Positions 37,310 to 52,613 of a DNA stretch of 58,996 bases are shown piece by piece. The notes beneath the pieces are model-generated. The model was not told the origin of the DNA and did not search any database. It saw nothing but the letters and a program-made list of their open reading frames with translations. Source of the stretch: Candidatus Gastranaerophilales bacterium (lineage in GTDB: Bacteria > Cyanobacteriota > Vampirovibrionia > Gastranaerophilales > Gastranaerophilaceae). Location: the NCBI GenBank assembly GCA_944324255.1, contig CALUVM010000011.1, positions 1-58,996 on the forward strand, in the 5' to 3' direction. Both the position numbers and the translations under genes were made by a program. The stretch's first letter is position 1. Each line of letters begins with the position of its first letter.

Positions 37310-37825
37310 TTATTTCTTAAGTTGTTTAGAGTTTAAACTTTGAAGTTCCGCTTTTCTTTTTTCATATCTCTGACGGCCTTCTTTTTTCATCTGCTTCAAA
37401 ATTTTCTTCTGGTCACGGGTCAGAATAGATTCAAATTCTTTCATATTAGCTTTTCTGATTTGATTGGCTTTCTTTTCAAGCTTAGAAATTTCTTTATCAA
37501 GAGCAGCTAACTTTTCTTCTTGAGCCCAAACTGCTATACGTGATAATTTCACCATTTTAGCTTCCTGCTTCTTATTATTTAACTCTTCCAAAACAGGTTT
37601 TAATTTTTCATGCCCTCTTAATCTGATTTCACGAGCTTGAGCTTTTTGAGCCTCGGTTAAACCTAATCTTTTTTCAAAAGCCGCATTACGGCGTTTCAGC
37701 TCAGGGTTTATTTTTTGAACACTCTGGGCTGGAGCCGGTGTTATACCGGCAGCCGGAGTTTCTGCAGCATAAGCACAAGCAGAAACCATACCAAGCACAA
37801 ACATTAGAACAACAACTTTTTTCAT
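37310..37825 (-). CDS. Spy/CpxP-like periplasmic LTxxQ protein
   Basis: A 171-residue protein with a signal peptide (MKKVVVLMFVLGMVSACAYA) and an all-helical, lysine-rich mature part carrying two LTxxQ motifs (LTEAQ near 56, LTRDQ near 138), the hallmark of Spy/CpxP envelope chaperones and related metal-stress proteins. It probably binds unfolded periplasmic proteins. It is the last gene of the anti-sigma/sigma operon, 18 bases after the sigma gene, which strongly suggests it is a direct target of that sigma factor. It is much more basic than Spy. Confidence 0.75.
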   Translation of the reverse strand: MKKVVVLMFVLGMVSACAYAAETPAAGITPAPAQSVQKINPELKRRNAAFEKRLGLTEAQKAQAREIRLRGHEKLKPVLEELNNKKQEAKMVKLSRIAVWAQEEKLAALDKEISKLEKKANQIRKANMKEFESILTRDQKKILKQMKKEGRQRYEKRKAELQSLNSKQLKK

Positions 37826-38705: not shown

Positions 38706-38733
38706 GTATAACGAAAAATAGAAAAAATTGTTC
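38706..38733 (-). promoter_or_regulatory. ECF promoter of the anti-sigma/sigma/Spy operon
   Basis: On the minus strand GAAC (38733-38730), 16 bases, CGTTATAC (38713-38706). Both elements match the general ECF form (GAAC / CGT). Its exact repeat in front of the 52.5-kb basic protein supports it. The -10 ends about 20 bases before the ATG. Confidence 0.7.
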
Positions 38734-38762
38734 ATTAATAGAAATAGTATTGCGGCTGATAA

Positions 38763-38790
38763 TAAAAAAAAGACCTTGTAACCAAGGCCT
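38763..38790 (-). terminator. Terminator downstream of the SDR gene
   Basis: On the minus strand GGCCTTG-gtta-CAAGGTC is followed by eight T. It lies about 190 bases past the SDR stop and before the anti-sigma promoter. The rest of the gap (38791-38976) holds AT-rich sequence with no gene. Confidence 0.7.
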
Positions 38791-38976
38791 GTCCGTTTAA
38801 ATAAGAAGAGAGAGCTTTATATCTATATAAAAAACTTGAGAAAATATTTTTTGCTATTTGGGGAAGTGAAAGTTAACATTTCTTTACATTGTAAAGCGGG
38901 GCGAATAAATAAAATTATGCACAAGGGACAATTTCTTATTCACTATTCACTACTAACTACTAACCACACAACTTAA

Positions 38977-39807
38977 CTACTTATAGTAACGTTTCATGCG
39001 AGCAGCCAAACCCAGACTGATAAGTTTATTCACAACACATTGAGGTAATTTTGACGCAAGACTTGCAGCAAAAGCATCACTTCCAACAGTATAAGATAGT
39101 TTTGGATTCTTTGCCCTATCAGCTTTTAGAATCGTATCCACAACCTTTGATACACTTGCCCCCTTTATCTCATTTCTGCGAGCACCTGCAACAATCAATT
39201 CAAGCTCTTTTTGATACTCTTCACAGCCGGTAAGATTTTTGGTATTCTCTTCAATTGATTTGCTCCAGAGAGGAGTTGCTATTACACCGGGTTTTATTGA
39301 TATAACCTTGATATTATGTTTATTTTCTATTAAAAATGAATTAAAAAACATATCCAAACAACGCTTGGAAGCACAATAAGGAGATATAAACGGGAATATC
39401 CCAAAACTCGCCATTGAACTTAAGTTTATAATCCGTCCGCCGGAAAGCACTTCTGCAAGATTTTGAGCCAATTCCAGATGTCCGAATACATTAACATTAA
39501 ACTGACGTCTGATTTCGTCCATATTAATCTTCTCAATCGGACCTGCAACAACACACCCTGCAATATTTATCAAAGTATCAATTTTCGTACACTTTGAAAG
39601 AATTTCTTCCGCTGCAGATTTTATCGTTGAAGGTTTTGCATAATCTACATAAAACGGATAAACATTTCCTGAAATTTTCTTTAAATCCTCAGCTTTATCT
39701 TCGGAGCGGTATGCCGCAAAAACGATATTATCAAGTGCCAGCTTCTCTGTTAGAGCTTTTCCTATGCCGGAAGTCGCTCCGGTTATAACATAGGTTTTAG
39801 TCTTCAT
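38977..39807 (-). CDS. Short-chain dehydrogenase/reductase
   Basis: A 276-residue NAD(P)-dependent classical SDR: TGATSGIGKAL cofactor motif near residue 8, 'LINIAGCVV' (NAG variant), catalytic Ser in 'INLSSMASFG' and 'YCASK' as the YxxxK catalytic pair. An arginine after the first beta strand (YRSEDKA) suggests NADP preference. The C-terminal 60 residues resemble those of SDRs acting on lipids or steroids, but the substrate is unknown. It overlaps the small upstream gene by 11 bases. Confidence 0.85.
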   Translation of the reverse strand: MKTKTYVITGATSGIGKALTEKLALDNIVFAAYRSEDKAEDLKKISGNVYPFYVDYAKPSTIKSAAEEILSKCTKIDTLINIAGCVVAGPIEKINMDEIRRQFNVNVFGHLELAQNLAEVLSGGRIINLSSMASFGIFPFISPYCASKRCLDMFFNSFLIENKHNIKVISIKPGVIATPLWSKSIEENTKNLTGCEEYQKELELIVAGARRNEIKGASVSKVVDTILKADRAKNPKLSYTVGSDAFAASLASKLPQCVVNKLISLGLAARMKRYYK

Positions 39808-40078
39808 ACAACGGCCTCATAATAAGGATTGAAGAAATATTAACCTGCATAAAATCATGCTCTTCTACATCTTTATTTGGATTGAGTTTATATTCCAGAG
39901 TACAATTCTTTACTGCAAGAAAACTTTTATTTGTATTTAAAATATCCGAAAGCAATCTGCTCTTCTTACCTATTTTAGGCATAAATACATAGCCGCAGAT
40001 TATATGTTCAGGTGTTTCTATATAAACTTTCTCCCGCCATGCCGAAGTTGTAAGCTCTAAAATTTCTTTATTTTCCAT
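39797..40078 (-). CDS. Small conserved protein (DUF6812-like), between GspF and SDR genes
   Basis: A 93-residue beta-rich protein: 'REKVYIETPEHIICGYVFMPKIGKKSRLLSDILNTNKSFLAVKNC' and 'DFMQVNISSILIMRPL'. The layout resembles small SH3-barrel-like proteins (DUF6812 type) found near cyanobacterial and pilus genes. The resemblance is from recall, so confidence is moderate. It lies 37 bases after the pilus platform gene and overlaps the SDR start, so it is in the same transcript as the pilus operon. Confidence 0.5.
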   Translation of the reverse strand: MENKEILELTTSAWREKVYIETPEHIICGYVFMPKIGKKSRLLSDILNTNKSFLAVKNCTLEYKLNPNKDVEEHDFMQVNISSILIMRPLYED

Positions 40079-40115
40079 TAATATTTATCCTTCAATTTCA
40101 CCTTTTTATACACCC

Positions 40116-41315
40116 TTAACTCATGTATGACTGGAACAACGGCAGGTAGAGAGCTAATGCCATTACAAGTACAATACTACCGATTACAAGAAGCATAATA
40201 GGCTCAATCATCTTAGTCATTGTATCTATAATACCGTCAAGAGTTCTGTCAAGGAAGTTTACACCTTTTTCAAGCATATCTCCCAAACGACCGGATTGTT
40301 CACCTGTTGCTATCATAAACAGCAGCATTCTCGGTACAATTTTCGTGGACTTTAATGCCTGAGATACTTGCAAACCTTGTTGAACTTTAACAATTGCACC
40401 ACTCATCTTATTTCTTAAAACAGAGTTGGTCAGCGTAATAACTGCCAGATGCAAACAGTCTACAATCGGAATACCTGCATCATACGAAACACTTAATACT
40501 GATAAAAAGTTTGAGTAGTTTGAATACAGAATTAAGTTATTTAAAAGAGGTATTTTTAAAACAATTTTATCTAAAATATTACGGGCAGGCTGCCATTTTA
40601 CAAGAACTATACAGAAAACTATAAAAGCAACTATAAATATTGGAATTGTGTACCAGTATGTTTTCAAATAGTCACCTGCATTAATCATCATTGTTGTAAT
40701 AAACGGCAAAGCTTTATCCTGCTGTTCAAACATCTCCTTAAATGCCGGAAATACAAATACAAGCATGACAATTGTAATAATAAATGCAAGAACAATTACA
40801 AACATCGGGTACATTAATGTACCTATAACCTTGCCTTTAATTGCAGCCTGTTTTGATAACAAATCACGTATACGTCCCAGAGTTTTTTCAAGTTCACCGG
40901 ACTCTTCACCGGCTTTAATCAAACCGATAAAAATATAACCAAATACCTGCGGATATCTAGCCAGAGTATCAGCAAAAGTAGAACCTGCCATAATCTGAGT
41001 TTTTAATATTTTAGAAACTCTTCTGATTTTCGCTTTTGCTGCCTCCTGCTCCATAAACATAAGAGATTCTACAGCCGGAATACCGGATTGTAACAAGATT
41101 TGCAATGTCGATATAAAATCAATCTTTTCCGTTAATGATAAATCCGAAATAGCAGCAGCTTTTTTCTGTTTAACATCACTAAATTCGTTAATTTTGGTAG
41201 GTACCAGACCCATTTTTCTTATTACATCTCTGGCATCTTTAAGATTGGAAGCTGTAACTTCCCCTTTTACGACTTCCTTTCCTGCTTTTAATGCTATATA
41301 ACTGTATATTGGCAT
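40116..41315 (-). CDS. Type IV pilus / type II secretion inner-membrane platform protein (PilC/GspF)
   Basis: A 399-residue polytopic protein with the duplicated GspF domain: cytoplasmic parts 'FISTLQILLQSGIPAVESLMFM' and 'SVSYDAGIPIVDCLHLAV' (the two LxxGxP repeats) and three membrane segments (VIVLAFIITIVMLVFVFP, YWYTIPIFIVAFIVFCIVLV, IEPIMLLVIGSIVLVMALALYLPLF). It couples the hexameric ATPase to pilin polymerisation. It is encoded after the ATPase and secretin in the same operon. Confidence 0.93.
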   Translation of the reverse strand: MPIYSYIALKAGKEVVKGEVTASNLKDARDVIRKMGLVPTKINEFSDVKQKKAAAISDLSLTEKIDFISTLQILLQSGIPAVESLMFMEQEAAKAKIRRVSKILKTQIMAGSTFADTLARYPQVFGYIFIGLIKAGEESGELEKTLGRIRDLLSKQAAIKGKVIGTLMYPMFVIVLAFIITIVMLVFVFPAFKEMFEQQDKALPFITTMMINAGDYLKTYWYTIPIFIVAFIVFCIVLVKWQPARNILDKIVLKIPLLNNLILYSNYSNFLSVLSVSYDAGIPIVDCLHLAVITLTNSVLRNKMSGAIVKVQQGLQVSQALKSTKIVPRMLLFMIATGEQSGRLGDMLEKGVNFLDRTLDGIIDTMTKMIEPIMLLVIGSIVLVMALALYLPLFQSYMS

Positions 41316-41340
41316 TTATTAACCCTCATATTTTAAAATC

Positions 41341-43395
41341 TTAATCACTTGCATAACCGAGAACTCTTATAAATTCACTGGTTGTTGTAATCCCATCAAT
41401 AATATGGTTCAAACAAGATGTTTTCAATGTAACCATACCAGCTCCTACGGCCGCTTCTTCAATTTCGATGTCATGCGCACCTTGGGCAATGAGTTTTTTA
41501 ATTTCTCTTGAAATCGGCATTACTTCATATATACCTAAACGTCCCGTATACCCGAGATAACCGCAGTCCTTACAGCCCTTTTTCTTGTATATTTTAGTTT
41601 TCATAAGCTGCTGCTGGATTTCCGGACTTGTAGAAATGTGTTTAGCCTCTTCTTCGGTTGGGAAATAAGCTTCTTTACATTTATCACACAATCGTCTTAC
41701 AAGACGCTGTGCAATAACACCTGTTAATGTTGAAGATACCAGATAATCTTTTGCACCCATTTCAATTAAACGTGTAACTGTTGCAGCTGCAGAGTTTGTG
41801 TGAACTGTGCTTAAAACGAGGTGACCTGTTAAAGCTGCTGATATAGCAACTTCTAAGGTTTCAAAGTCACGAATTTCACCGATAAGTATAATATCAGGGT
41901 CTTGTCTTAAGATTGCTCTCATACAGGATGCAAATGTAATATCGGCTTTCGGGTTAACCTGCGATTGGTTAATCCCTTCCAGCTTAATTTCTATCGGGTC
42001 TTCAATTGTCGTAATATTAACATCTTCTTTATTTAAAGCTTTTAAGATTGTATAAAGTGTAGTCGTTTTACCTGAACCTGTAGGACCGGATGTAAGAATA
42101 ATCCCGTTCGGGGACTGCACCATGTCATGAATCTTTCTCAAATCCTCATCAGAAGCTCCCGCAATAACCATCTTATCACCTGAAGCCTTCAAACTGACGG
42201 CAGGTGCAAGAATACGAATTACAACTTTCTCTTTTCCTGAAACAGGGAGAGTATTTATACGGAAATCGTACATTCTGTCATTATATTTAATAGAAAAGGT
42301 TCCGTCCTGCGGACGTCTGTGCTCAGCAATATTCATTCTTGCAAGAACTTTGAAACGGGTAATAACCGCCTGTTCTATACTTCCCGGAATCTCAAGAACT
42401 TTTTTCAAAATACCGTCCGAACGCAAACGAACAACATAATAACCAAGCCTTGGCTCAATATGAATATCTGATGCCTTTGCATCAATAGCATCTGTAATAA
42501 TCTTATATACGAACTTTGCGACGTTACCGCTTGCATCCTGAAGTTCTTTTTCAACTTGAGCCCAGAGAGTTTCCTCATTATTAAATTGTGCAGATTCTTC
42601 TTCAATACTCTGAATGATTCTCTCTGTTTCTTTTGCGGTCTGCTCACTTTTCTTTTGAATAAAGTATTCTTTCAAATACATATCATATTCAAAATAAGGA
42701 ATACAGTAGACATTTAAAGGACGACCCGTAGAAAGAGAAACCTCTCGAATGGTGTACTTGTCAGTTGGATTTACCATGGCAACGGCAAGTTTATTTCCTT
42801 CCATTGACATAATGATAGTATGTTTCTTTTCAATAAAGTCATCCGGAAGCATTTTTAATATTGTATTATCAACTACAATATTGGATTTTGAAACAACTTC
42901 TACACCATACTTTTTTTTCAAATATGATACAATTTGTTCGTAAGTGAGGTAGTTCTTTTCTTTAAAAATTGCATCCAGAGGCAAGTTCTGTTCATGAGCC
43001 AGAGTCTGGCATTCAACCAGTTGTTCTTTAGTTATCCAACCTATACTGACAAGCATTTCTTCCGCTGTCGGTTCCTTATTCTCTTCCTGCCCGGAATTTT
43101 CCGTTGCAGCCGGCTGTTCGGGAACGGCTACAGTTCCGACTACGGAATTAAATATATCGTCAAAATCTCTGGAATCAACAGGAATAAACCTTGGAGTAAA
43201 ACCGGCAAATTTTTCCTTTACTATTTGCTCAATTTTCTGTTTATTAGCAGCACTTCCCTTATTTAAAATTACGAAAAAATCTGTTTGCCTCTTATCAACT
43301 GGAATAAAACCTGATGATTTCATCAGGTTTAATTCAAAAGATTTAGTATATTCTTTTCTTATACTGTTTTTTAGTTTTTCCAGTTGATTAGACAT
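41341..43395 (-). CDS. Type IV pilus / type II secretion assembly ATPase (PilB/GspE)
   Basis: A 684-residue hexameric ATPase. An MshEN-like N-terminal part ('SIGWITKEQLVECQTLAHEQNLPLDAIF') is followed by 'ASDIHIEPR', Walker A GPTGSGKT near residue 436, the aspartate box and the Walker B-like 'QDPDIILIGEIRDFETLEVAISAALTGHLVLSTVHTN'. A four-cysteine zinc site ('CDKCKEAYFP...CKDCGY') typical of GspE/PilB lies near residues 565-605. The first 90 residues are an unrecognised extra domain. It probably extends pili or drives secretion; no PilT-type retraction ATPase is in the window. Confidence 0.93.
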   Translation of the reverse strand: MSNQLEKLKNSIRKEYTKSFELNLMKSSGFIPVDKRQTDFFVILNKGSAANKQKIEQIVKEKFAGFTPRFIPVDSRDFDDIFNSVVGTVAVPEQPAATENSGQEENKEPTAEEMLVSIGWITKEQLVECQTLAHEQNLPLDAIFKEKNYLTYEQIVSYLKKKYGVEVVSKSNIVVDNTILKMLPDDFIEKKHTIIMSMEGNKLAVAMVNPTDKYTIREVSLSTGRPLNVYCIPYFEYDMYLKEYFIQKKSEQTAKETERIIQSIEEESAQFNNEETLWAQVEKELQDASGNVAKFVYKIITDAIDAKASDIHIEPRLGYYVVRLRSDGILKKVLEIPGSIEQAVITRFKVLARMNIAEHRRPQDGTFSIKYNDRMYDFRINTLPVSGKEKVVIRILAPAVSLKASGDKMVIAGASDEDLRKIHDMVQSPNGIILTSGPTGSGKTTTLYTILKALNKEDVNITTIEDPIEIKLEGINQSQVNPKADITFASCMRAILRQDPDIILIGEIRDFETLEVAISAALTGHLVLSTVHTNSAAATVTRLIEMGAKDYLVSSTLTGVIAQRLVRRLCDKCKEAYFPTEEEAKHISTSPEIQQQLMKTKIYKKKGCKDCGYLGYTGRLGIYEVMPISREIKKLIAQGAHDIEIEEAAVGAGMVTLKTSCLNHIIDGITTTSEFIRVLGYASD

Positions 43396-43400
43396 AGTTA

Positions 43401-45311
43401 TTATAATGTATCCGCAACAGTACCTTCGTCATCATTGATTATTTTTGGAGTAAGCATTACAACGAGTTCTGACTTAGCTTTTGATGTAACTGTTGAACGG
43501 AATGCTGAACCAATTACCGGCAAATCTCCTAACAGCGGGATTTTATGAACTGTTTTCTGTTCTGATTCTTGAATCAAACCACCTATAACAAGGGTTTCAC
43601 CATCTTTAATTCTAACATTTTTCAAATCAAGATTTCTTCTGCTCAGTAATGTAGCTTCAAGGTCAGTTTGTCCGGCAACTTCACTTTGAGTTCTGACTTC
43701 ACCTGCCTGAGTTGAATATTCAGGTTTAACATTAACTGTTACATAACCTTCAGGAGAGATAAACGGTGTCAAAGTAACTTTAATACCCAAATCCTTACCA
43801 ATTGTATAGTTTCTCTGGGCTGTACCTGTTGTACCTGTACCTGTTACAGATGATGTCAGGTATTCAGATGTGACTTTTTCTACATAGTCTTGAGTTAAGT
43901 CGATAACAGACTGCTGACCGTTAGTAATCAAGATTTTCGGATTAGCTAAAACACGTGCCTTACGGTTTTCTATTAAATAATTCATCTGCCATGTTATATA
44001 TGTTGTAGCAGGCATAAGTTCATAGAATGTACGGGCAATCTGTTGAGGAACAATAACATTGCCTTCTTCATCCTGATATGGATCTTTTGAACCGCCAGGT
44101 CCGCTCCAGGTGTAATCAACAGATTCTACATAATAACCGCTTCTGCCGCCAGGTCTGCCGCCGGAAGTTGACTCACCGTTAAAATTAAAGCCCCAGGCTT
44201 TACTTGCTACCTGCCAGTTATTTGTAAACTCTTTGCTGCCCTGTTCGTTTAATTCAACAATAGAAACTTCCAACAATGCCTGCGGTTGTTTTATATCATT
44301 TGCTTTAATAAAGTTTTCAATCATATCTGCTTGAGCTTGTGAACCGCCCATCAATGTAATAGTTCCTCTCTGCGGATAGTATGAAATTGATAGGTTTTGA
44401 AGTTCAAACGGTGATACGGTATTACTTGATGAAGCAGGGGCAACAGAGCAAGCAACCACACCCTCTCCAAGTACAATACCATTAAGTGTATCTGTAGCAG
44501 CACCTGTCATTATACCTGCAGCACCGCCTGTTGATGTTCCTGCACTTGTAGCTGGAGGTGTGCTGGACCCAGACGAAGATGAAGATTTTTTATCGTTAGC
44601 TCCTCTGGAAGGAAGAAGCATATTACAAATCATATTTGCCATTTCTGCCGGTGTTGTATGATTTACTGCAAATGTTCTTGTCAGAGGTTCTCTGTCAAAC
44701 TGTGATATAACTTTTTCTACAATAGGAACATCACTCGGCATACCAAAAACTATCAACTCATTTGTTGCAGCATTAACCGTTGCAGCATCTACACTTGAGA
44801 TACCGGCTCTTCTCATTCCAAACACATTTTTGTTAAGAAAATCCGCAATCTTAGTTGCACTTACATATTTTACAGGGAATACCATCATTTCTTGCTTGGA
44901 GTATACAGCATTGTCCGCATCATCCTTTGCTATAACAATAAGAGTATTACCTTCTTTATAATAATTTAAACCTGCAACCTGTAATACCAGATTAAAAGCA
45001 TCATTTATAGGAGTCTTAACCAAATCAAGGGTAACAGACCCTTCAACTGATTTATGGAATACGATATTTAATCCGGCTTTATCAGCAAACATTCTCAGTA
45101 CCTGTTGTACATCAGAATCACGAAGGCTGAGAGTAATTATATCATTATTCTCAGTCAGCTTAACATCACCGGATAAAACCATTGAACCAACATACGGAGA
45201 TTCATATGATACCGCTTCCGAATCATATGGCGACAAAGCTAGCGTTGAAGGCGCCGTAAAAGCTATTAATAGCGCAACCGACAAAGCTCTTTTTATATTG
45301 CTGTAACTCAT
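43401..45311 (-). CDS. Secretin (GspD/PilQ family)
   Basis: A 636-residue outer-membrane channel subunit. It has a signal peptide (residues 1-25), an N0/STN-like domain 'LSLRDSDVQQVLRMFADKAGLNIVFHKSVEGSVTLDL', N1-type repeats, a Ser/Gly/Thr-rich linker near 250-270 (KSSSSSGSSTPP), then the secretin core 'VLANPKILITNGQQSVIDL', 'GIKVTLTPFISPEGYVTVNVKPEYS' and 'VRIKDGETLVIGGLIQESEQKTVHKIPLLGDLPVIGSAFRS'. The presence of a secretin shows the cell has an outer membrane. The start overlaps the GspC-like stop by one base. Confidence 0.93.
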   Translation of the reverse strand: MSYSNIKRALSVALLIAFTAPSTLALSPYDSEAVSYESPYVGSMVLSGDVKLTENNDIITLSLRDSDVQQVLRMFADKAGLNIVFHKSVEGSVTLDLVKTPINDAFNLVLQVAGLNYYKEGNTLIVIAKDDADNAVYSKQEMMVFPVKYVSATKIADFLNKNVFGMRRAGISSVDAATVNAATNELIVFGMPSDVPIVEKVISQFDREPLTRTFAVNHTTPAEMANMICNMLLPSRGANDKKSSSSSGSSTPPATSAGTSTGGAAGIMTGAATDTLNGIVLGEGVVACSVAPASSSNTVSPFELQNLSISYYPQRGTITLMGGSQAQADMIENFIKANDIKQPQALLEVSIVELNEQGSKEFTNNWQVASKAWGFNFNGESTSGGRPGGRSGYYVESVDYTWSGPGGSKDPYQDEEGNVIVPQQIARTFYELMPATTYITWQMNYLIENRKARVLANPKILITNGQQSVIDLTQDYVEKVTSEYLTSSVTGTGTTGTAQRNYTIGKDLGIKVTLTPFISPEGYVTVNVKPEYSTQAGEVRTQSEVAGQTDLEATLLSRRNLDLKNVRIKDGETLVIGGLIQESEQKTVHKIPLLGDLPVIGSAFRSTVTSKAKSELVVMLTPKIINDDEGTVADTL

Positions 45312-45976
45312 TATCTCTTACCTCCGAATTTGTTATTTAAATTTGAAACATCACTTTGATTTAATGATCCTTCTGTTAATAATTCACCTATACCTGCTTT
45401 ATAAGTATTAGCACCCAGTTTAACAGTTACACTGTCCTGCATAATATTTATAACTTTATAATTATTTACTGTATCACCTTTCTTAACAAGGTAATCATTG
45501 CCTTCAATATTAAGAATAGCAGACGGGCTGTATTTATCATACAGAATACCTGATACCGTTGTATCCATAACTCTTGCAGCTTCCGAATCCTCAACAATTG
45601 TTTCCGGCGGTTCTACCAGAGCATATTTAGGAACATCCAGAGATGATGTTCCGCTGATGTTGCGGTATGGTAAAAACGGGTCCGCTTTAACTATTCCCGA
45701 AGGTATTGCTATCAAATCTTTTTTAGCTGATGTTGCAGCGACAGGAAGTGAAACTAACTGTACATTATCCGTATCTTCCGGCATCTGGATTCCCATTCCG
45801 GAAAATAAGGCATGTGCACACACAGCAGATATAACAAGTACCAGAGAGCAGGCTGTCAGAATAAACTTACCCCGTGCAGCTCTTTTTGGTTTAAACCTGC
45901 TTAGAATTTCCTCAGTCGCAAGATCTGAAATAGCAGAACTTTTAAGATTTTTCTTCATGTAATTGCGCATTTTCAT
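45311..45976 (-). CDS. GspC/PilP-like inner-membrane pilus protein
   Basis: A 221-residue protein with one membrane helix near residues 40-60 (ILTACSLVLVISAVCAHALFS) and a periplasmic part ending in the HR-type fold: 'SGILYDKYSPSAILNIEGNDYLVKKGDTVNNYKVINIMQDSVTVKLGANTYKAGIGELL'. This fold in PilP/GspC contacts the N0 domain of the secretin, the gene encoded directly after. GGAGGT near its end serves as ribosome binding site for the secretin gene. No PilM/N/O homologues are adjacent. Confidence 0.7.
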   Translation of the reverse strand: MKMRNYMKKNLKSSAISDLATEEILSRFKPKRAARGKFILTACSLVLVISAVCAHALFSGMGIQMPEDTDNVQLVSLPVAATSAKKDLIAIPSGIVKADPFLPYRNISGTSSLDVPKYALVEPPETIVEDSEAARVMDTTVSGILYDKYSPSAILNIEGNDYLVKKGDTVNNYKVINIMQDSVTVKLGANTYKAGIGELLTEGSLNQSDVSNLNNKFGGKR

Positions 45977-46170
45977 CTTATACTTCTAACTACTTTAAAT
46001 TAACCTCTATCTTACTTAAACCTTACAATATTGAGAGAAGAATTAAATCCTATGTTTAAACTATTTCATTACAGTTATTCTTCAAAAAATAATACTCTTC
46101 CAATATTATAAAACCTATAATAATCATACCATATTTTAATAATATGGCAACTACAAATATTATTTTAATT

Positions 46171-46767
46171 TTATTTTATATGCGGCTCCGGTAAAACAGG
46201 CAGATATACATAGGCATTAAAGCCCAATGATCCGAATATAATCTTTATTTTTGAACCGTCAACCGGAAGCATTTTTACAAAATCCAACTCATTTTCTCCA
46301 AAATCGTCTTTTGTTTCTACCGCTTTAACTTTTCCTTTAAGAAACTCTGATTGATAAAATAGGAGATATACCTCCGAGTTTTTATTTTTTTCACCTATAA
46401 TCTTATAAAACCCTTTGTCCAGAACATTTTCTTCTATGACCACATTAACCGGAAGGTTCAAAAGCTGTCCTTCAGTATCAGACTTCAGTGCAGGAATTTC
46501 TTGTATTTTACTGTCCGGCTCAAGCCCGTTATGCAAACTTGTTCCGCCTCCGCTTATTTTCTTTATTAATTTCTTCCTCTGTTTCTCATCCTTCTTTTTC
46601 TGATTTGATTGCAGAGCATCCATAACCTCCTCAAATTCTTTATTAGTTACAGATTCTTGCCCGTCCCACATTCTGTCAATATTACCAAAATCATCCCAAT
46701 CCGCAGCCAGTACGGCTGACGAAACAAACATCGCTATAATTAAAACAAGCAGTATATTCTTTTTCAT
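46171..46767 (-). CDS. Secreted protein upstream of the pilus operon, unknown function
   Basis: A 198-residue protein with a signal peptide (MKKNILLVLIIAMFVSSAVLA), a charged coiled-coil-like stretch with 'NQKKKDEKQRKKLIKKISGG', then a beta-rich C-terminal domain ('VNVVIEENVLDKGFYKIIG', 'VYLLFYQSEFLKGKVKAVE', 'KIIFGSLGFNAYVYLPVLPEP'). It lies upstream of the GspC-like gene on the same strand, separated by 194 bases with a small hairpin (46129-46147), so it may have its own promoter. A pilus-accessory role is possible from position only. Confidence 0.5.
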   Translation of the reverse strand: MKKNILLVLIIAMFVSSAVLAADWDDFGNIDRMWDGQESVTNKEFEEVMDALQSNQKKKDEKQRKKLIKKISGGGTSLHNGLEPDSKIQEIPALKSDTEGQLLNLPVNVVIEENVLDKGFYKIIGEKNKNSEVYLLFYQSEFLKGKVKAVETKDDFGENELDFVKMLPVDGSKIKIIFGSLGFNAYVYLPVLPEPHIK

Positions 46768-46880
46768 ATTATTAAATATATAACTGTTTTCATAAAAAAG
46801 TAAATACTATTTATATGAAATTATTTTACTTTTTTATCAAATAATGTATAATATTGTTATAGCAAGAAGAGAGGTCATGG

Positions 46881-48539
46881 ATGACAAACATTAATGTTGT
46901 AATAATAGTAGCTGCAAGCGCAATAGCTATTATTGTTGTGTTTGTATTATATGCCATTGTCATCTTTCAAGGCTCAAGAAATTCAAAAGGCGGGGAGCTT
47001 CAACTCTCAACAAAGAATATTCTTGATCAGGTAGAAGTGCTGTATGATAAGGGTGAATATGCACTCGTCCAGCTGCTTGCTACAAAATATCTGGACAGAG
47101 TCCCGGGACATCGGGATGTTCGCCAATACCTCGCACAAGCTTATTACAAAGATAAAAAATATAATAATGCTATTAAACAATGTCTGATTATATTAAAAAA
47201 AGACCCCGGAAATATTGATACAAAAAAACTTCTCGGAGATTGTTTTATTAAAAAACAGGCTTATATGAAAGCCATTAAAGAATATGAAGAAATCTTTGAC
47301 TACAAAAGCAATGATAAAGAAGTTGTAAGAACCCTTGCAGAACTATACAGGGATACTGATCAGCTCTACTCAGCTATCTCGGTTTACAATATTCTTTCAG
47401 ACTTAATGGAACAAAATGAAGATATTGCAGAGGTGCAGCTTATTCTTGCTAACTTAAACGAAGAAGTTCATGATTATCCGGCAGCATTTGAGGCATATAA
47501 AAACCGTCTTAATATTTATCCTACGGATACTTCAACAAACAGAAAGCTTATTGAACTATACATAAAAATTAAAAATTATCCAAAAGCTATTGAAACGCTT
47601 CTATTTATGCTCTCTTTTGCAACAGAGCCGAAAGTTCTTTTATGGGTTTATGAAACTCTTGTAAGTCTTTACGTTGAAACCGAAGAATATGAAAAAGCCA
47701 TTGAATATTCTAATAAACTGCTGGATGTTCAAGGTTCTGATAAGTTTAAAGTCAGAAATGATATTGCAACTTTCAATATCAAACTGAATAATTTCCAGGA
47801 AGGTATAACTATTCTGGAAGACCTTGTTATGATGTCCCAAAACGGATATGAAGTAACGGTTGAACTTGCGGACGCTTATATCAAATGTAAAGAATACCAG
47901 AAGGCTCTGGATAAATACCTTGCTCTTTTAGATAAATCCACCCAGAAGGAAGCTAAAAACGTAAGGCTGCTAATCTGCGAATTGTATATATTCTGGGCTG
48001 TTGATAAAGCCGAGAAAAAAGATTATGACGCATCTTTTGAATATTTAAATACAGCAACCCAATATAATGCACTTAATCCTGAGATATATTATAATTATGC
48101 ATTAAATCAAATAGCACTTAAAAATTACGCAAGTGCGGTTGAATATCTTCACAAGTCTCTTGATTATGATAAAAACAAAACTAATTATACCAAATACCTT
48201 CTAAAACTTTCCGAAGCTCACAATTATCTCGGAAACTTCTTTGAAGAGAAAAAAGCTCTCTCTGACCTGCTCAAAATTGATGATAAAAACCCGATGGGAC
48301 TTTATAGGTCAGGACTACTTTGTGTTTCACAGCACGATACAAAAGAAGCCGAAGAATGCTTTAAAAAAGCACTTCAATATGATCCGGATTTATTAAAAGC
48401 AAAATACAATCTTGCCCTTTTATATGAAAGCAATAACCGGGACAAGGCCAAAGAACTTTATATAGAAGTTCTTGAGCAAGATCCGAGTTTTGAAGAAGCA
48501 AAGAATGCTCTTGCAGATTTAACATCCTCTGATTATTAA
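46881..48539 (+). CDS. Membrane-anchored TPR protein
   Basis: A 552-residue protein with one N-terminal membrane helix (VVIIVAASAIAIIVVFVLYAIVI) and about 12-14 tetratricopeptide repeats over the rest, e.g. 'RQYLAQAYYKDKKYNNAIKQCLIILKKDPGN' and 'AEECFKKALQYDPDLLKAKYNLALLYESNN'. TPRs form a protein-binding superhelix; here it faces the cytoplasm or periplasm from one anchor. It is divergent from the secreted 198-aa gene with a TATAAT-containing promoter region (46847-46852) between them. Its last four bases overlap the small minus-strand gene that follows. Confidence 0.85.
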   Translation: MTNINVVIIVAASAIAIIVVFVLYAIVIFQGSRNSKGGELQLSTKNILDQVEVLYDKGEYALVQLLATKYLDRVPGHRDVRQYLAQAYYKDKKYNNAIKQCLIILKKDPGNIDTKKLLGDCFIKKQAYMKAIKEYEEIFDYKSNDKEVVRTLAELYRDTDQLYSAISVYNILSDLMEQNEDIAEVQLILANLNEEVHDYPAAFEAYKNRLNIYPTDTSTNRKLIELYIKIKNYPKAIETLLFMLSFATEPKVLLWVYETLVSLYVETEEYEKAIEYSNKLLDVQGSDKFKVRNDIATFNIKLNNFQEGITILEDLVMMSQNGYEVTVELADAYIKCKEYQKALDKYLALLDKSTQKEAKNVRLLICELYIFWAVDKAEKKDYDASFEYLNTATQYNALNPEIYYNYALNQIALKNYASAVEYLHKSLDYDKNKTNYTKYLLKLSEAHNYLGNFFEEKKALSDLLKIDDKNPMGLYRSGLLCVSQHDTKEAEECFKKALQYDPDLLKAKYNLALLYESNNRDKAKELYIEVLEQDPSFEEAKNALADLTSSDY

Positions 48540-48709
48540 ATATCTTCCGGAATAAATATAACTGTATCCGATAAGTAATTTCGAGCCTCGTTTAAATCAG
48601 AAAAACGGGGAACAATTCTTTGATAGTCTTGCACGACACTTATTATATCGTCTACAGACATCTTAATCATTCTTCTGGAGCCGGTTTGTGATTCTATAAT
48701 TCTTGCCAT
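48536..48709 (-). CDS. Small 57-aa conserved-looking protein
   Basis: A 57-residue protein beginning MARIIESQTGSRRMIKMSVDDI and ending YLSDTVIFIPEDI. AGAGGTGAATT precedes the ATG and codon use matches its neighbours, so I consider it real although short. It is convergent with the TPR gene (four-base overlap) and lies downstream of thrB on the opposite strand. It has no membrane segment. The composition (helix, then DTVIFIPEDI strand) suggests a small regulator or binding protein; I do not know the family. Confidence 0.65.
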   Translation of the reverse strand: MARIIESQTGSRRMIKMSVDDIISVVQDYQRIVPRFSDLNEARNYLSDTVIFIPEDI

Positions 48710-48801
48710 AATTCACCTCTGTAAAATAATTAACGGCAAAAAAACTTTAAACTTTAGTAAAATACAACCGCAAAATTAGAAAAATATTTTCAAATCGGAA
48801 G

Positions 48802-49743
48802 CTATTCCAGAATCTGTGCTCCCTGTTGCTCCACTTTAAGAGTTTTAAAGTCAGCTTTTATATTCTGCGCACCCCAGATATCTCTTACTGTTGATTTAAT
48901 TTTATCTAAATCATATCTGTAGGATATTACAAGCATTGCAGGCCCTGCGCCGGAAAGCACACATCCGAGGACACCGTCTTCATGTTTAAAAGCCTCGGAT
49001 ATCTCTTTCATACCCGGAATAAGCTTTTCTCTATACGGCTGGTGAATTCTGTCTTTAAGTGCCAGTTTCATTAATTTTTCATCATTTGTACAAACTGCCG
49101 TAATAAGCATTGCCAGATGCTTGGAATTAAAAATCGCATCTTCAAGCGGAACTTCTTTCGGAAGAACCGAACGTGCAATACTTGTAGACAGTTCAAAATC
49201 AGGAATACAAACAGTTATATCCCAATCTTCAGGCCAATCAAGCTTGCGCCATGTTACAGTCCCGTCATCTTCCTGCGAAGACAAAACGAATCCCCCCAAT
49301 ATTGCAGGTGCAACGTTATCAGGATGACCTTCTACTTCTGTTGCAATAGACAAAAGGGCTGTTTCATCAGCCGGAGAGCCCAAAAGTTTATTTGCGGCAA
49401 TCAAGCCTCCGACAACAACTGCCGCTGAACTTCCCAGACCTCTTGTTATAGGAATTTGGGATTGTATATTAATCTTTAACTCGGAAGGTTCCTGCCCGAT
49501 TGAATTATAAAGCATTTCCACTGCCTTATACACAATATTATTTGAATCGGTAGGAATGTTATCAAAAACTCTTTCATCAACAACATCTTCCACTTCCGGT
49601 ATCATATTTATTTCTACACCCGTTCCCGGTAGAACCGTTTCTTCAATTGTTATAGTATTATAAATAGGAAGAGCCAACCCCAGACAATCAAAACCGGGGC
49701 CCAGATTCGCCGTAGTTGCGGGTACTTTTACACTAACTTTCAT
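48802..49743 (-). CDS. thrB: Homoserine kinase
   Basis: A 313-residue GHMP-family kinase that phosphorylates homoserine in threonine biosynthesis. Visible: 'VKVPATTANLGPGFDCLGLAL' at the N-terminus, the ATP-binding 'IPITRGLGSSAAVVVGGLIAAN', 'EGHPDNVAPAILGGF' and the C-terminal 'VLGCVLSGAGPAMLVIS'. The order and length are exactly those of ThrB. A TATAAT-like box lies upstream near 49770. No other threonine gene is adjacent. Confidence 0.95.
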   Translation of the reverse strand: MKVSVKVPATTANLGPGFDCLGLALPIYNTITIEETVLPGTGVEINMIPEVEDVVDERVFDNIPTDSNNIVYKAVEMLYNSIGQEPSELKINIQSQIPITRGLGSSAAVVVGGLIAANKLLGSPADETALLSIATEVEGHPDNVAPAILGGFVLSSQEDDGTVTWRKLDWPEDWDITVCIPDFELSTSIARSVLPKEVPLEDAIFNSKHLAMLITAVCTNDEKLMKLALKDRIHQPYREKLIPGMKEISEAFKHEDGVLGCVLSGAGPAMLVISYRYDLDKIKSTVRDIWGAQNIKADFKTLKVEQQGAQILE

Positions 49744-49877
49744 TTAATTAACTTCTCCTAACAAAAAAGTATAATCGGATTATACAATAAAGACAAATTT
49801 TATGTAAAATTTTTGAAAATCCCCGGGAGGTTTTTATTAAGCTTTGTAAATATTTGCAGGCACATGTCAGATTTTAA

Positions 49878-49916
49878 GGCAATTCCGGATAGGCAAGCAA
49901 CTTAATATAAATAGAT
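49878..49916 (+). promoter_or_regulatory. GGCAA-type promoter motif before the 218-aa protein
   Basis: GGCAA (49878-49882), 19 bases ending AAC, then TTAATATAAATAGAT (49902-49916); 22 bases from the start codon. Confidence 0.55.
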
Positions 49917-49937
49917 GTGTAATAGTGGAGTGTTGTC

Positions 49938-50594
49938 ATGACTTATTCTTATTCTGTAATCAATCCATCCGGATATAAAGATGTAAGCAAGGTTAAAGAA
50001 AAATCCGCTCTTCCGGGTACAATTCTGGGATTAGGAGCCGGTGCTGCCGCCGGCGGCTTTATAGGTTATAAGAAAAATTTTATTAGCGACAAAACAGGAA
50101 TAAAGAATTCTTTTGCTAAAAAAGTGCAAGACAAACTCCTTAATGATGCCGGAGATACTGCAAAAAATATACATAAACAAAGAGAAATAATTATAAAAAA
50201 ATTAGATAAAATTAAAACTCCGGAAGACTTAAAAGAATTATTCAGCAAAAATAAAGATGCCGCACAAGATATGTGCAGTAAATTTAAAAAATCGCTTGAT
50301 GAAATTATGCAAACTATTACTAAAGAAAATCTCAAAGAAAACAAAAAAACTTTTAAAAATTGGTTCATAGCAGAGCGCAATAATGATTTTCAATCAATAA
50401 AGAACATTGTTCAGTACTGCTGGGATAAAGACGGGAAAAATTTTGTAAAACCGTCAACTATTAAAGACAATGTATATAATGCTATCCTTTCAGCCCAAAA
50501 GAAAGTTAAAACTGCAACAATCTTAAAATATGCCGCAATTACAGGTGCAGTCGGCGCCGCTATCGGTTTTATAATAAATAAATTTTTAAATTGA
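49938..50594 (+). CDS. Glycine-zipper membrane protein, unknown function
   Basis: A 218-residue protein with two glycine-rich hydrophobic segments: GTILGLGAGAAAGGFIGY near residue 30 and AAITGAVGAAIGFIINKF at the C-terminus. Between them is a long charged helical region rich in Lys, likely coiled. Glycine zippers suggest helix packing in the membrane or oligomer formation. The N-terminus MTYSYSVINPSGYKDV is polar. It is single-gene and transcribed from a GGCAA-type promoter. I cannot assign a family. Confidence 0.55.
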   Translation: MTYSYSVINPSGYKDVSKVKEKSALPGTILGLGAGAAAGGFIGYKKNFISDKTGIKNSFAKKVQDKLLNDAGDTAKNIHKQREIIIKKLDKIKTPEDLKELFSKNKDAAQDMCSKFKKSLDEIMQTITKENLKENKKTFKNWFIAERNNDFQSIKNIVQYCWDKDGKNFVKPSTIKDNVYNAILSAQKKVKTATILKYAAITGAVGAAIGFIINKFLN

Positions 50595-50621
50595 ACAAAT
50601 ATAAAATATTAGATGTATAAT
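50591..50621 (+). promoter_or_regulatory. Promoter of mazG, possibly leaderless
   Basis: TATAAT (50616-50621) lies six bases before the ATG at 50628, and TTGAAC at 50591-50596 is a spaced -35 candidate with a long 19-base spacer. No ribosome binding site precedes the ATG, so a leaderless mRNA is likely. Confidence 0.4.
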
Positions 50622-50627
50622 TAAACT

Positions 50628-51395
50628 ATGAAATATCCGCAAATGGAAAGACTCATAGGAATAGTTGCAGCTCTCAGAGGGGAAAATGGCTGTAAGTGGG
50701 ATAAAGAACAGACTCACAAGTCTTTACGCCCCAATATGCTTGAAGAAGCTTACGAAGCTGTTGATGCAATTGATGACGGAGATATGGCAAACCTTAGAGA
50801 AGAACTTGGAGATGTTCTTTTGCAGGTTGTACTCCATGCTCAAATTGCAAAAGATGAGGGTGATTTTGATATAGAAGATGTTGCACAAGAACTTGCAGAC
50901 AAGCTTGTCCACAGGCATCCGCATGTTTTTGGAAATACAAAAGTACATTCTACGCAAGAGATTTTAGATAATTGGGATAAGTTAAAGAAGGAAGAAAAAA
51001 CCTACAGAAAATCAATCCTTGACGGGATATCAAAGTCCCAATCAGCCTTGATGTCAGCACAAAAAATCAGCAAAAAAGTTGTAAAAGTTGGTTTTGAATG
51101 GGATTCTGTCGAAAGTCTTAAAGAATGTATAAAATCTGAATATAAAGAATTTGAAGAAGCTGTAAAAACGGGAAACAAAGAGCTTATGGAAGACGAGATG
51201 GGCGACATCTTTTTTGCAACTGTCAATCTTGCCAGATGGTATAAAATTGATGCCGAACAGGCACTTTTAAGAGCAAATAAAAAATTCACAAAACGTTTCC
51301 GCAAAATGGAAGAAATAGCCCGAAAGCCATTAGAAGAATACTCATATGAGGAATTTGATAAGTTATGGAAACAGGCTAAACTGCTTGTAGAATAA
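50628..51395 (+). CDS. mazG: Nucleoside triphosphate pyrophosphohydrolase MazG
   Basis: A 255-residue all-helical house-cleaning enzyme hydrolysing non-canonical NTPs and possibly lowering (p)ppGpp. It has two MazG units: 'LRGENGCKWDKEQTHKSLRPNMLEEAYEAVDAIDDGDMANLREELGDVLLQVVLHAQIA' (metal-binding ExxE12-28ExxD) and a second near 170-215 ('EYKEFEEAVKTGNKELMEDEMGDIFFATVNLARW'). The final section 'ANKKFTKRFRKMEEIA' is characteristic. It is followed 15 bases later by the parvulin gene with its own ribosome binding site. Confidence 0.93.
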   Translation: MKYPQMERLIGIVAALRGENGCKWDKEQTHKSLRPNMLEEAYEAVDAIDDGDMANLREELGDVLLQVVLHAQIAKDEGDFDIEDVAQELADKLVHRHPHVFGNTKVHSTQEILDNWDKLKKEEKTYRKSILDGISKSQSALMSAQKISKKVVKVGFEWDSVESLKECIKSEYKEFEEAVKTGNKELMEDEMGDIFFATVNLARWYKIDAEQALLRANKKFTKRFRKMEEIARKPLEEYSYEEFDKLWKQAKLLVE

Positions 51396-51410
51396 AAAGA
51401 GGAGAATTTT

Positions 51411-51755
51411 ATGAAAAAATTATTAGCAGGATTATTTGTCTTGGCATGTTTTTTGCCTGCTGTTTTTGCAGAAGAGTTTACAGAAGTATGTGCGTCCCAT
51501 ATTCTTGTCCCGACAGAAATGGATGCTATTAAAATTAAAAGTCAGATAAATTCATATGAAGATTTTCAAAAATATGCAAGAGAGTATTCAACTTGCCCTT
51601 CTGGTCGAAATGGCGGCAGTTTAGGGTGTTTCAGGAGAGGACAAATGGTAAAACCCTTTGAAGATGCTGCATTTAACGGCAATATAGGCGAAGTTTCCGA
51701 TCCGGTTGAAACTCAATATGGCTACCATTTGATTTGGATTAGTGAAAAGCACTGA
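51411..51755 (+). CDS. Secreted parvulin-type peptidyl-prolyl isomerase
   Basis: A 114-residue protein: a signal peptide (MKKLLAGLFVLACFLPAVFA) followed by a single PpiC rotamase domain ('CASHILVPTEMDAIKIKSQI', 'FQKYAREYSTCPSGRNGGSLGCFRRGQMVKPFEDAAFNGNIGEVSDPVETQYGYHLIWI'). It helps fold envelope proteins by isomerising prolyl bonds. Unlike SurA or PrsA it has no chaperone domain. GAGGAG precedes the start. It probably shares the mazG transcript. Confidence 0.9.
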   Translation: MKKLLAGLFVLACFLPAVFAEEFTEVCASHILVPTEMDAIKIKSQINSYEDFQKYAREYSTCPSGRNGGSLGCFRRGQMVKPFEDAAFNGNIGEVSDPVETQYGYHLIWISEKH

Positions 51756-51819
51756 GATTTTGATTTTTAGGTATGATTATGGTATTTTGTAAAAGTAAGA
51801 TATAAAAGGGAGATTTAGT

Positions 51820-52107
51820 ATGAAAAAGATTCTATCATCATTATTGGTATTAATGTTCTTATCAGCGGCAGCTCCGGTATTTGCCGGCGGTACACAGGGC
51901 ACTCCGGGAGAAATTTCAGGTAAATCAGTTGGTGCAGCAGCTCTATCTCTTATTATCTGGCCTGGTCTAGGACAATTAATCAATGATAACCCTGTTGATA
52001 AAAACGTTACACACGCAATTTTAGGTTTAACAGGAATTTTCAGAATCTGGTCTTGCTATGATGCTCTGGTTGACAGAACCGGCGGTGTTTGGCATAACAG
52101 AATATAG
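51820..52107 (+). CDS. Small exported hydrophobic protein
   Basis: A 95-residue protein with a signal peptide (MKKILSSLLVLMFLSAAAPVFA), a glycine-rich stretch and a hydrophobic segment 'SVGAAALSLIIWPGLGQLIND'; it ends RTGGVWHNRI. The pattern resembles small TM2/'pro-PGxGQ' proteins, where PGLGQ(L/F) occurs in membrane turns. AAGGGAG precedes the ATG. It ends before a strong bidirectional terminator. The function is unknown. Confidence 0.6.
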   Translation: MKKILSSLLVLMFLSAAAPVFAGGTQGTPGEISGKSVGAAALSLIIWPGLGQLINDNPVDKNVTHAILGLTGIFRIWSCYDALVDRTGGVWHNRI

Positions 52108-52118
52108 TATTGTATTTC

Positions 52119-52156
52119 AAAAAGGGGCTGAGTACAAATGTACTCAGCCCCTTTTA
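52119..52156. terminator. Strong bidirectional terminator
   Basis: A 17-bp perfect stem (AAAAGGGGCTGAGTACA / TGTACTCAGCCCCTTTT) around AA, with T-runs on both sides, between convergent genes. Confidence 0.88.
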
Positions 52157-52171
52157 TTCGTTTAATATCAA

Positions 52172-52540
52172 TTATCTTCTTCCATAACGTCTTGGAGCGA
52201 AATCTTTTCTGTTTCTGTCCGGTGCTTTTCTAAAGTTATCACGATGAGATCTGTGATTATTCTTCATATCCGGTCTGCGGTCATTTTTTGGTCTTTCCCA
52301 ACCCGGTCTTTGATTTTTCTTTGACTGAAATTGTTTTTTGTGATCGTTTTGTTTTTTGACAAATTTTTGGTGCTTCTTTTCCGCTTTCTTTTTAAATTGA
52401 GCATGACGTTTCTGCGGTTTGATTACCTTGTGTTGCGCAGGACGTTGTTTGTGATGCGGAGCAGCAAAACATTCTGCATTAAATCCGATACCAGTTAATA
52501 AAGCACCTGCCACTAAGAGTGATAAAATTTTCTTGTTCAT
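52172..52540 (-). CDS. Secreted, very basic Arg/Lys/His-rich protein
   Basis: A 122-residue protein with a signal peptide (MNKKILSLLVAGALLTGIGFNAECFA) and a mature part dominated by Lys, Arg, His, Gln and Asn, with no hydrophobic core, so probably disordered and of very high pI. Such proteins may bind anionic surface polymers, metals or nucleic acid in the envelope. Its promoter repeats exactly the ECF promoter of the anti-sigma/sigma/Spy operon, which makes it a predicted target of that stress response. Confidence 0.6.
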   Translation of the reverse strand: MNKKILSLLVAGALLTGIGFNAECFAAPHHKQRPAQHKVIKPQKRHAQFKKKAEKKHQKFVKKQNDHKKQFQSKKNQRPGWERPKNDRRPDMKNNHRSHRDNFRKAPDRNRKDFAPRRYGRR

Positions 52541-52585
52541 ACTTAAATCCTCATTCTAATATCTCTACACTTGCGCGCTATATTT

Positions 52586-52613
52586 GTATAACGAAAACAG
52601 AAAACAATTGTTC
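52586..52613 (-). promoter_or_regulatory. ECF promoter of the secreted basic protein gene
   Basis: On the minus strand GAAC (52613-52610), 16 bases, CGTTATAC (52593-52586). It has the same elements and spacing as 38733-38706, and the spacers are also alike (AATT, then T-rich). Confidence 0.7.

Follow-up and report, generated by a model that had tools for sequence, protein, structure and literature searches.

Does a promoter-like sequence that occurs twice in one stretch of bacterial DNA mark the regulon of a single sigma factor? The stretch in question, 58,996 nucleotides (nt) of contig CALUVM010000011.1 from a Candidatus Gastranaerophilales bacterium (assembly GCA_944324255.1; referred to below as the window), carries GAAC-N16-CGTTATAC on its minus strand at 38733-38706, upstream of an operon for an anti-sigma-like protein, an extracytoplasmic function (ECF) sigma factor, and a Spy-like periplasmic protein, and again at 52613-52586, upstream of a gene for an exported, very basic protein. 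Both sites and their spacing are exactly as described in a first-pass annotation of this DNA, and the gene content described there agrees with the domain assignments and with the isoelectric point (pI) of the basic protein. With a probability of about 0.88, the two promoters are predicted to serve one autoregulated ECF sigma factor that would receive an envelope signal via the anti-sigma factor.

Conservation of the promoter and of the sigma operon

The operon is read from the minus strand in the order anti-sigma, ECF sigma, Spy-like gene, with the anti-sigma stop codon and the sigma start codon overlapping in TAATG. The sigma factor consists of region 2 and region 4 only (Sigma70_r2, residues 7-69; Sigma70_r4_2, residues 105-157), without region 3, scores above the cut-off of the sigma70-ECF model TIGR02937, and is accompanied in all complete orthologous loci by a co-encoded, overlapping upstream anti-sigma gene whose product combines an Hx3Cx2C motif with a membrane segment. 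Of the 58 genus genomes, 54 yielded a sigma-factor orthologue, and the gene order is kept among Gastranaerophilales (gut Melainabacteria) relatives. The exact motif lies upstream of the anti-sigma start in all 42 distinct genus sequences and before the operon in 40 of 44 additional sequences from Gastranaerophilales (family and named-contig sets); of the 16 sequences that represent the order's other families, six have the exact motif and eight more have it with one mismatch. Shuffled upstream regions yielded the exact motif in none of 2,240 trials and a motif with one mismatch in 0.3%. In 49 distinct sigma-operon promoters, selected by a filter that demanded GAAC and CGTTATA but not the flanking T bases, T precedes GAAC in 100% and CGTT in 98%, and the spacer is merely A/T-rich. 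Since relatives conserve nothing more of the spacer than this composition, little weight attaches to the likeness of the two window spacers to which the first-pass annotation had drawn attention, even though 11 of 16 positions are shared when the two are compared by eye. Sites at the order level and before target genes hold on to GAAC and CGTT, whereas their final three bases drift, and the promoter core is therefore GAAC-N16/17-CGTT. This conserved element before the sigma factor's own operon supplies the sequence side of the bipartite arrangement, an AAC-type -35 and a CGT-type -10 element, by which ECF promoters are recognized. The annotated view that the sites belong to one ECF regulon, with the sigma factor's own operon among its members, is upheld by this conservation across genus and order and before orthologues of the basic protein. 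In one genome (G025, L024:870-1060), a repeated stretch of about 110 nt ('ctacgcacgtaataaactgacggctgagaaagg...') stands directly upstream of the sigma-operon promoter.

The comparison with relatives carries more than the window itself does. A search of the window with GAAC-N15-17-CGTTATA returned no matches besides the two promoters (chance expectation 0.06; two matches in 0 of 100 shuffles). A genome-wide search for the motif, which had been recommended together with the original annotation, used the plain pattern GAAC-N14-18-CGTTATA and gave 10 matches in this genome (G000) versus 11 in the reversed control, a count not above background and unusable as proof; six of the ten matches lie within genes and four are intergenic, ahead of a gene start. 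Given this lack of genome-wide enrichment, the coincidence of two sites taken alone is weakly suggestive and insufficient, and the support comes from conservation in relatives. The ECF sigma factor is assigned to these promoters because they would provide autoregulation and because the motif is absent at the genome's other ECF operon (G000:C14:47441-47923), where GAAC/CGTT was looked for and not found. That second ECF sigma gene precedes its anti-sigma gene, an opposite order that is conserved in the genus.

The predicted regulon

With a tightened pattern, the 58 genus genomes contain 106 matches versus 21 in the reversed control (summed from the table); 51 of the 106 precede the sigma operon as judged by coordinates. 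The remaining 55 were fetched and read: nine fall within long genes, and for 38 intergenic sites a start codon follows within 130 nt, one of these start codons being that of an operon's own anti-sigma gene. A strong hydrophobic segment, marking exported or membrane proteins, is present in 38 of 38 intergenic targets versus 17 of 54 window genes, a target class consistent with an envelope response. The conserved second member of the regulon is a small membrane protein (SDEN...FRKFLVVALGSFVGVFCALSLFAALHKPP) rather than the basic protein: it was found in 49 of the genus genomes, and GAAC-N16/17-CGTT lies upstream of all 24 located orthologues (three read by eye). Other recurrent targets comprise a His/Pro-rich exported family, SIMPL (DUF541) proteins, and exported proteins with WG repeats and YD-like repeats; most target proteins gave no match to a Pfam family. 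Three promoter copies spaced about 1.1 kb apart on a single contig (G183:C14:19392, 20468, and 21595) suggest a tandem array of regulon genes.

The basic protein, of whose residues 45% are K, R, or H once the signal peptide is removed, has confident orthologues in five other genomes (G004, G025, G010, G003, and G035), and the motif is located a short distance upstream in all six, this genome included; a further weak match in G045 lacks it. It is a predicted regulon member wherever it is present, but it is present in few genomes. The proposal that it works with the Spy-like chaperone in envelope protection is unsupported, given its occurrence in about 6 of 58 genomes versus 54 for the sigma operon and 49 for the small membrane protein, and as a core partner of the Spy-like protein it was rejected as too rare. 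Its match to the Asr acid-shock protein model NF033636 (23.4 bits) falls below the cut-off of 50 and may be explained by its basic composition. Next to it (window 51411-52107), genes for a PpiC-type prolyl isomerase and a 95-residue protein without Pfam family, both small and exported, run on the other strand and lack the promoter.

In this genome, four units make up the predicted regulon. Besides the operon and the basic protein (52540-52172), they comprise an exported protein of about 111 residues (G000:C2) and a small membrane protein (G000:C39). Their coordinates are collected in Table 1. Between the two promoter units, the window contains a cluster resembling type II secretion or type IV pilus genes (40116-46767; inner membrane protein, ATPase, and secretin, named from translations only).

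Table 1. Predicted promoters, genes, and further intergenic sites of the proposed regulon (aa, amino acids; window positions unless a contig is given)
Feature	Position	Strand	Remarks
Predicted ECF promoter 1, GAAC-N16-CGTTATAC	38706..38733	-	Site sequence GAACAATTTTTTCTATTTTTCGTTATAC; anti-sigma start codon 20 nt downstream
Predicted ECF promoter 2, GAAC-N16-CGTTATAC	52586..52613	-	Site sequence GAACAATTGTTTTCTGTTTTCGTTATAC; basic-protein start codon 45 nt downstream
Anti-sigma factor (predicted), 114 aa	38341..38685	-	Named by motif, gene position, and conserved cassette
ECF sigma factor, 165 aa	37844..38341	-	Sigma70_r2 and Sigma70_r4_2
Spy-like periplasmic protein, 171 aa, predicted all-helical	37310..37825	-	LTXXQ family
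Exported very basic protein, 122 aa, predicted lineage-specific regulon member	52172..52540	-	pI 11.5
Intergenic plain-pattern site	G000:C2:105545		Upstream of exported protein, ~111 aa
Intergenic plain-pattern site	G000:C39:6343		Upstream of 115-aa protein with one membrane segment

The anti-sigma factor and the Spy-like protein

A search of the first operon protein against Pfam and NCBIfam at E 0.001 gave no match; it is called anti-sigma-like on account of its motif, gene position, and conserved cassette, and its binding and inhibition of the sigma factor are predicted. Its layout comprises a cytoplasmic Hx3Cx2C motif (H23, C27, C30), the mark of zinc-type class I anti-sigma domains (PMC7406223), one predicted membrane helix, and a short periplasmic part ending in a conserved tail, GFPVDSYGLLMVD. 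The motif is present in 42 of 42 genus proteins and in 15 of 16 order-level ones. At the periplasmic C-terminus, P104, D106, G109, and L110 are shared by all 58 distinct anti-sigma proteins compared, matching the zinc ligands in conservation, and the almost invariant consensus of the tail reads PxDxYGLL; elsewhere in the periplasmic part, and in the membrane segment, the sequence varies. Among possible sensing elements, this tail is the strongest candidate. The structure model of the protein is of low confidence (predicted template modelling score 0.31) and was left uninterpreted.

In the proposed mechanism, the membrane-bound anti-sigma factor would hold the sigma factor in the resting cell. 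An envelope signal, read via the short periplasmic part with its PxDxYGLL tail, would free the sigma factor, probably by proteolysis of the anti-sigma factor or by loss of a bound partner; candidate M50 and trypsin-like protease genes for regulated proteolysis are present but near-universal. The freed sigma factor would then use TGAAC-N16/17-CGTT promoters to transcribe its own operon and a few genes for exported or membrane proteins, whose products might protect the envelope.

The third operon protein appears from its sequence to be Spy-like but not Spy itself: it passes the cut-off of PF07813 (LTXXQ; 26.6 versus 24.3 bits) and falls far short of that of the Escherichia coli Spy equivalog PRK10455 (30.8 versus 174 bits). 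L54, Q60, and Q139 are invariant in 36 orthologues. In the same orthologues, conserved histidines or cysteines were sought and none was found, the near-invariant columns being L, T, Q, P, N, F, E, and I; metal sensing by this protein, for which a CnrX-type sensor would have conserved histidine and methionine ligands, was rejected for want of conserved ligands. The structure is modelled confidently as helical (predicted local distance difference test score 88), the fold of the Spy/CpxP/ZraP family being a hooked helical hairpin. Its nearest solved structure is ZraP (Z 11.4, root-mean-square deviation 1.4 over 77 residues, against a high helical background), and Spy and CnrX are also among its structural neighbours, with Foldseek E-values above 0.1.

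The cassette in Alphaproteobacteria

An identically ordered set of these three genes occurs in ten loci of metagenome-assembled genomes labelled Alphaproteobacteria or proteobacterium (L198, L200-L207, and L225; L205 begins inside the cassette, whose limits were set about 400 nt ahead of the sigma gene and at the end of the Spy-like gene), and GAAC-N17-CGTTATA or a near variant lies upstream of most of them. The anti-sigma proteins encoded there lack the Hx3Cx2C domain, keep the pre-membrane helix, and, in all but L207, keep the tail; two Gastranaerophilales proteins (L159 and L199) are likewise without the zinc motif. L199, labelled 'uncultured bacterium', appears to be the same as G496 of the window's own family (identical match at the same place), and it was grouped with the Alphaproteobacteria in the upstream-motif counts, the sigma tree, the approximately unbiased (AU) test, and the five-genome pattern count.

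In the sigma tree, the Alphaproteobacteria are nested within Gastranaerophilales, adjoining L159 and L199. The cassette has likely been transferred between the phyla; either direction is possible, as a single Gastranaerophilales clade survives the AU test (p 0.22), and so is misbinning of single contigs. A contig labelled Muribaculaceae (L177) carries a Gastranaerophilales cassette with a sigma identity of 66% and probably belongs to a mislabelled bin. In five genomes on the alphaproteobacterial side, one of them really Gastranaerophilales, the regulon pattern gave 9 matches versus 12 in the control; as this is not above control, only autoregulation is supported there. The scan that located the cassettes detected no Spy-like neighbour beside more distant relatives of the sigma factor.

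These observations can be tentatively combined into an envelope-sensing module in which PxDxYGLL would be read, independently of the zinc domain, by the Spy-like protein or by a peptide-recognizing protease, and which may have passed as a whole, promoter included, between gut Melainabacteria and gut Alphaproteobacteria.

Alternative readings

The alternative that survives best concerns the sensing step only and does not conflict with what the regulon model says of the promoters. The Spy-like protein could itself be the sensor, like CnrX or AabB, binding the anti-sigma tail so that a signal alters the contact, with its role as an output chaperone being secondary. This is a serious possibility, if not the favoured one: the order and Alphaproteobacteria alike preserve the three-gene architecture and gene neighbourhood, the tail equals the zinc ligands in conservation and outlasts the loss of the zinc domain, and ZraP, Spy, and CnrX are found among the structures of similar fold. 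On the other hand, the protein has none of the conserved histidines or cysteines expected of a metal sensor, and a chaperone that is simply a target gene within the operon would look identical. It is improbable that the anti-sigma zinc motif senses cytoplasmic oxidants or metals, making this a redox rather than an envelope response. The presence of Hx3Cx2C in all 42 genus proteins would fit such a role, and motifs of this type sense redox in some soluble anti-sigma factors, while often being structural (PMC7406223). The protein here, however, is membrane-bound with a conserved periplasmic tail and the targets are exported; redox sensing by the motif as the main input is further disfavoured by the relatives that lack it, both in Alphaproteobacteria and in two Gastranaerophilales.

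With regard to the promoters themselves, there is a slim chance that the sites are ordinary sigma-70 promoters (TGAACA -18- TATACT/TATACA) rather than ECF promoters, as TATAC(T/A) fits a -10 element and TGAACA agrees by eye with four of six -35 positions. This reading was rejected on the invariant GAAC and the CG of CGTT, which have no role in a sigma-70 promoter, and which, as part of GAAC and CGTT, are kept at order-level and membrane-protein sites where the last three bases drift. Moreover, nearly all targets are exported or membrane proteins, and the motif stands ahead of the ECF operon in every testable genus genome. Chance likeness of the two window sites, with which the lack of genomic enrichment of the plain pattern would agree, is refuted by the conservation of both upstream of orthologous genes and can be regarded as negligible.

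Several points nevertheless weigh against the model of a single autoregulated ECF regulon. The assignment of the promoters to this sigma factor is drawn from autoregulation and from the second ECF operon's lack of the motif, and the CGTTATA-C/A end does resemble a sigma-70 -10 element. G004 has the basic protein and its promoter, and no sigma orthologue was found in that fragmented assembly. The fold match of the Spy-like protein is statistically weak (best Foldseek E 0.12).

Significance and comparison with known systems

Gut Melainabacteria are hard to culture, and among the papers searched for this group in combination with sigma factors, none describes a transcriptional stress response of its members; searches on stress in the group brought up host-microbiome studies without relevance. 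The analysis provides a predicted regulon with a sharply defined promoter and ties otherwise unannotated exported proteins to it; the conserved anti-sigma tail points to the sensing step, and the cassette in gut Alphaproteobacteria suggests that an envelope-stress module has been exchanged between phyla of a shared habitat.

Individual components resemble those of well-studied systems. In E. coli, spy is controlled by the Cpx and Bae responses and lies outside the rpoE operon. The RpoE/RseA and Cpx/Spy systems of that organism share with the present one an ECF sigma factor with a membrane anti-sigma factor and, as an envelope-stress product, a Spy-type periplasmic chaperone that is putative here, whereas no RseB is encoded in the operon here. 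Class I Hx3Cx2C anti-sigma factors (PMC7406223) are built alike, with a cytoplasmic zinc-motif domain leading into a helix and then a membrane segment; the protein described here differs in that its periplasmic part is very short, with a tail that hardly varies, and in that some of its relatives lack the zinc domain. CnrYXH of Cupriavidus metallidurans likewise combines an ECF sigma factor, a small membrane anti-sigma factor, and a periplasmic protein, CnrX, whose fold is among the structural neighbours of the Spy-like protein. In contrast to the latter, which lacks conserved metal ligands, CnrX is a metal sensor, and CnrY is a two-helix class II anti-sigma factor (PMC7406223), whereas the anti-sigma factor here usually carries Hx3Cx2C. 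The closest functional parallel found, by analogy of architecture, is SigAb-AabA-AabB of Acinetobacter baumannii, an autoregulated three-gene ECF operon induced by copper (PMC12153292). Both systems consist of a sigma factor, a small single-pass anti-sigma factor, and a small periplasmic helical protein, with a small direct regulon, which for the window's system is predicted; the sigma gene comes first in A. baumannii, and the likeness is one of architecture. Judged by its sequence conservation, the system in the window is a genuine, well-conserved predicted ECF regulon of an already known kind.

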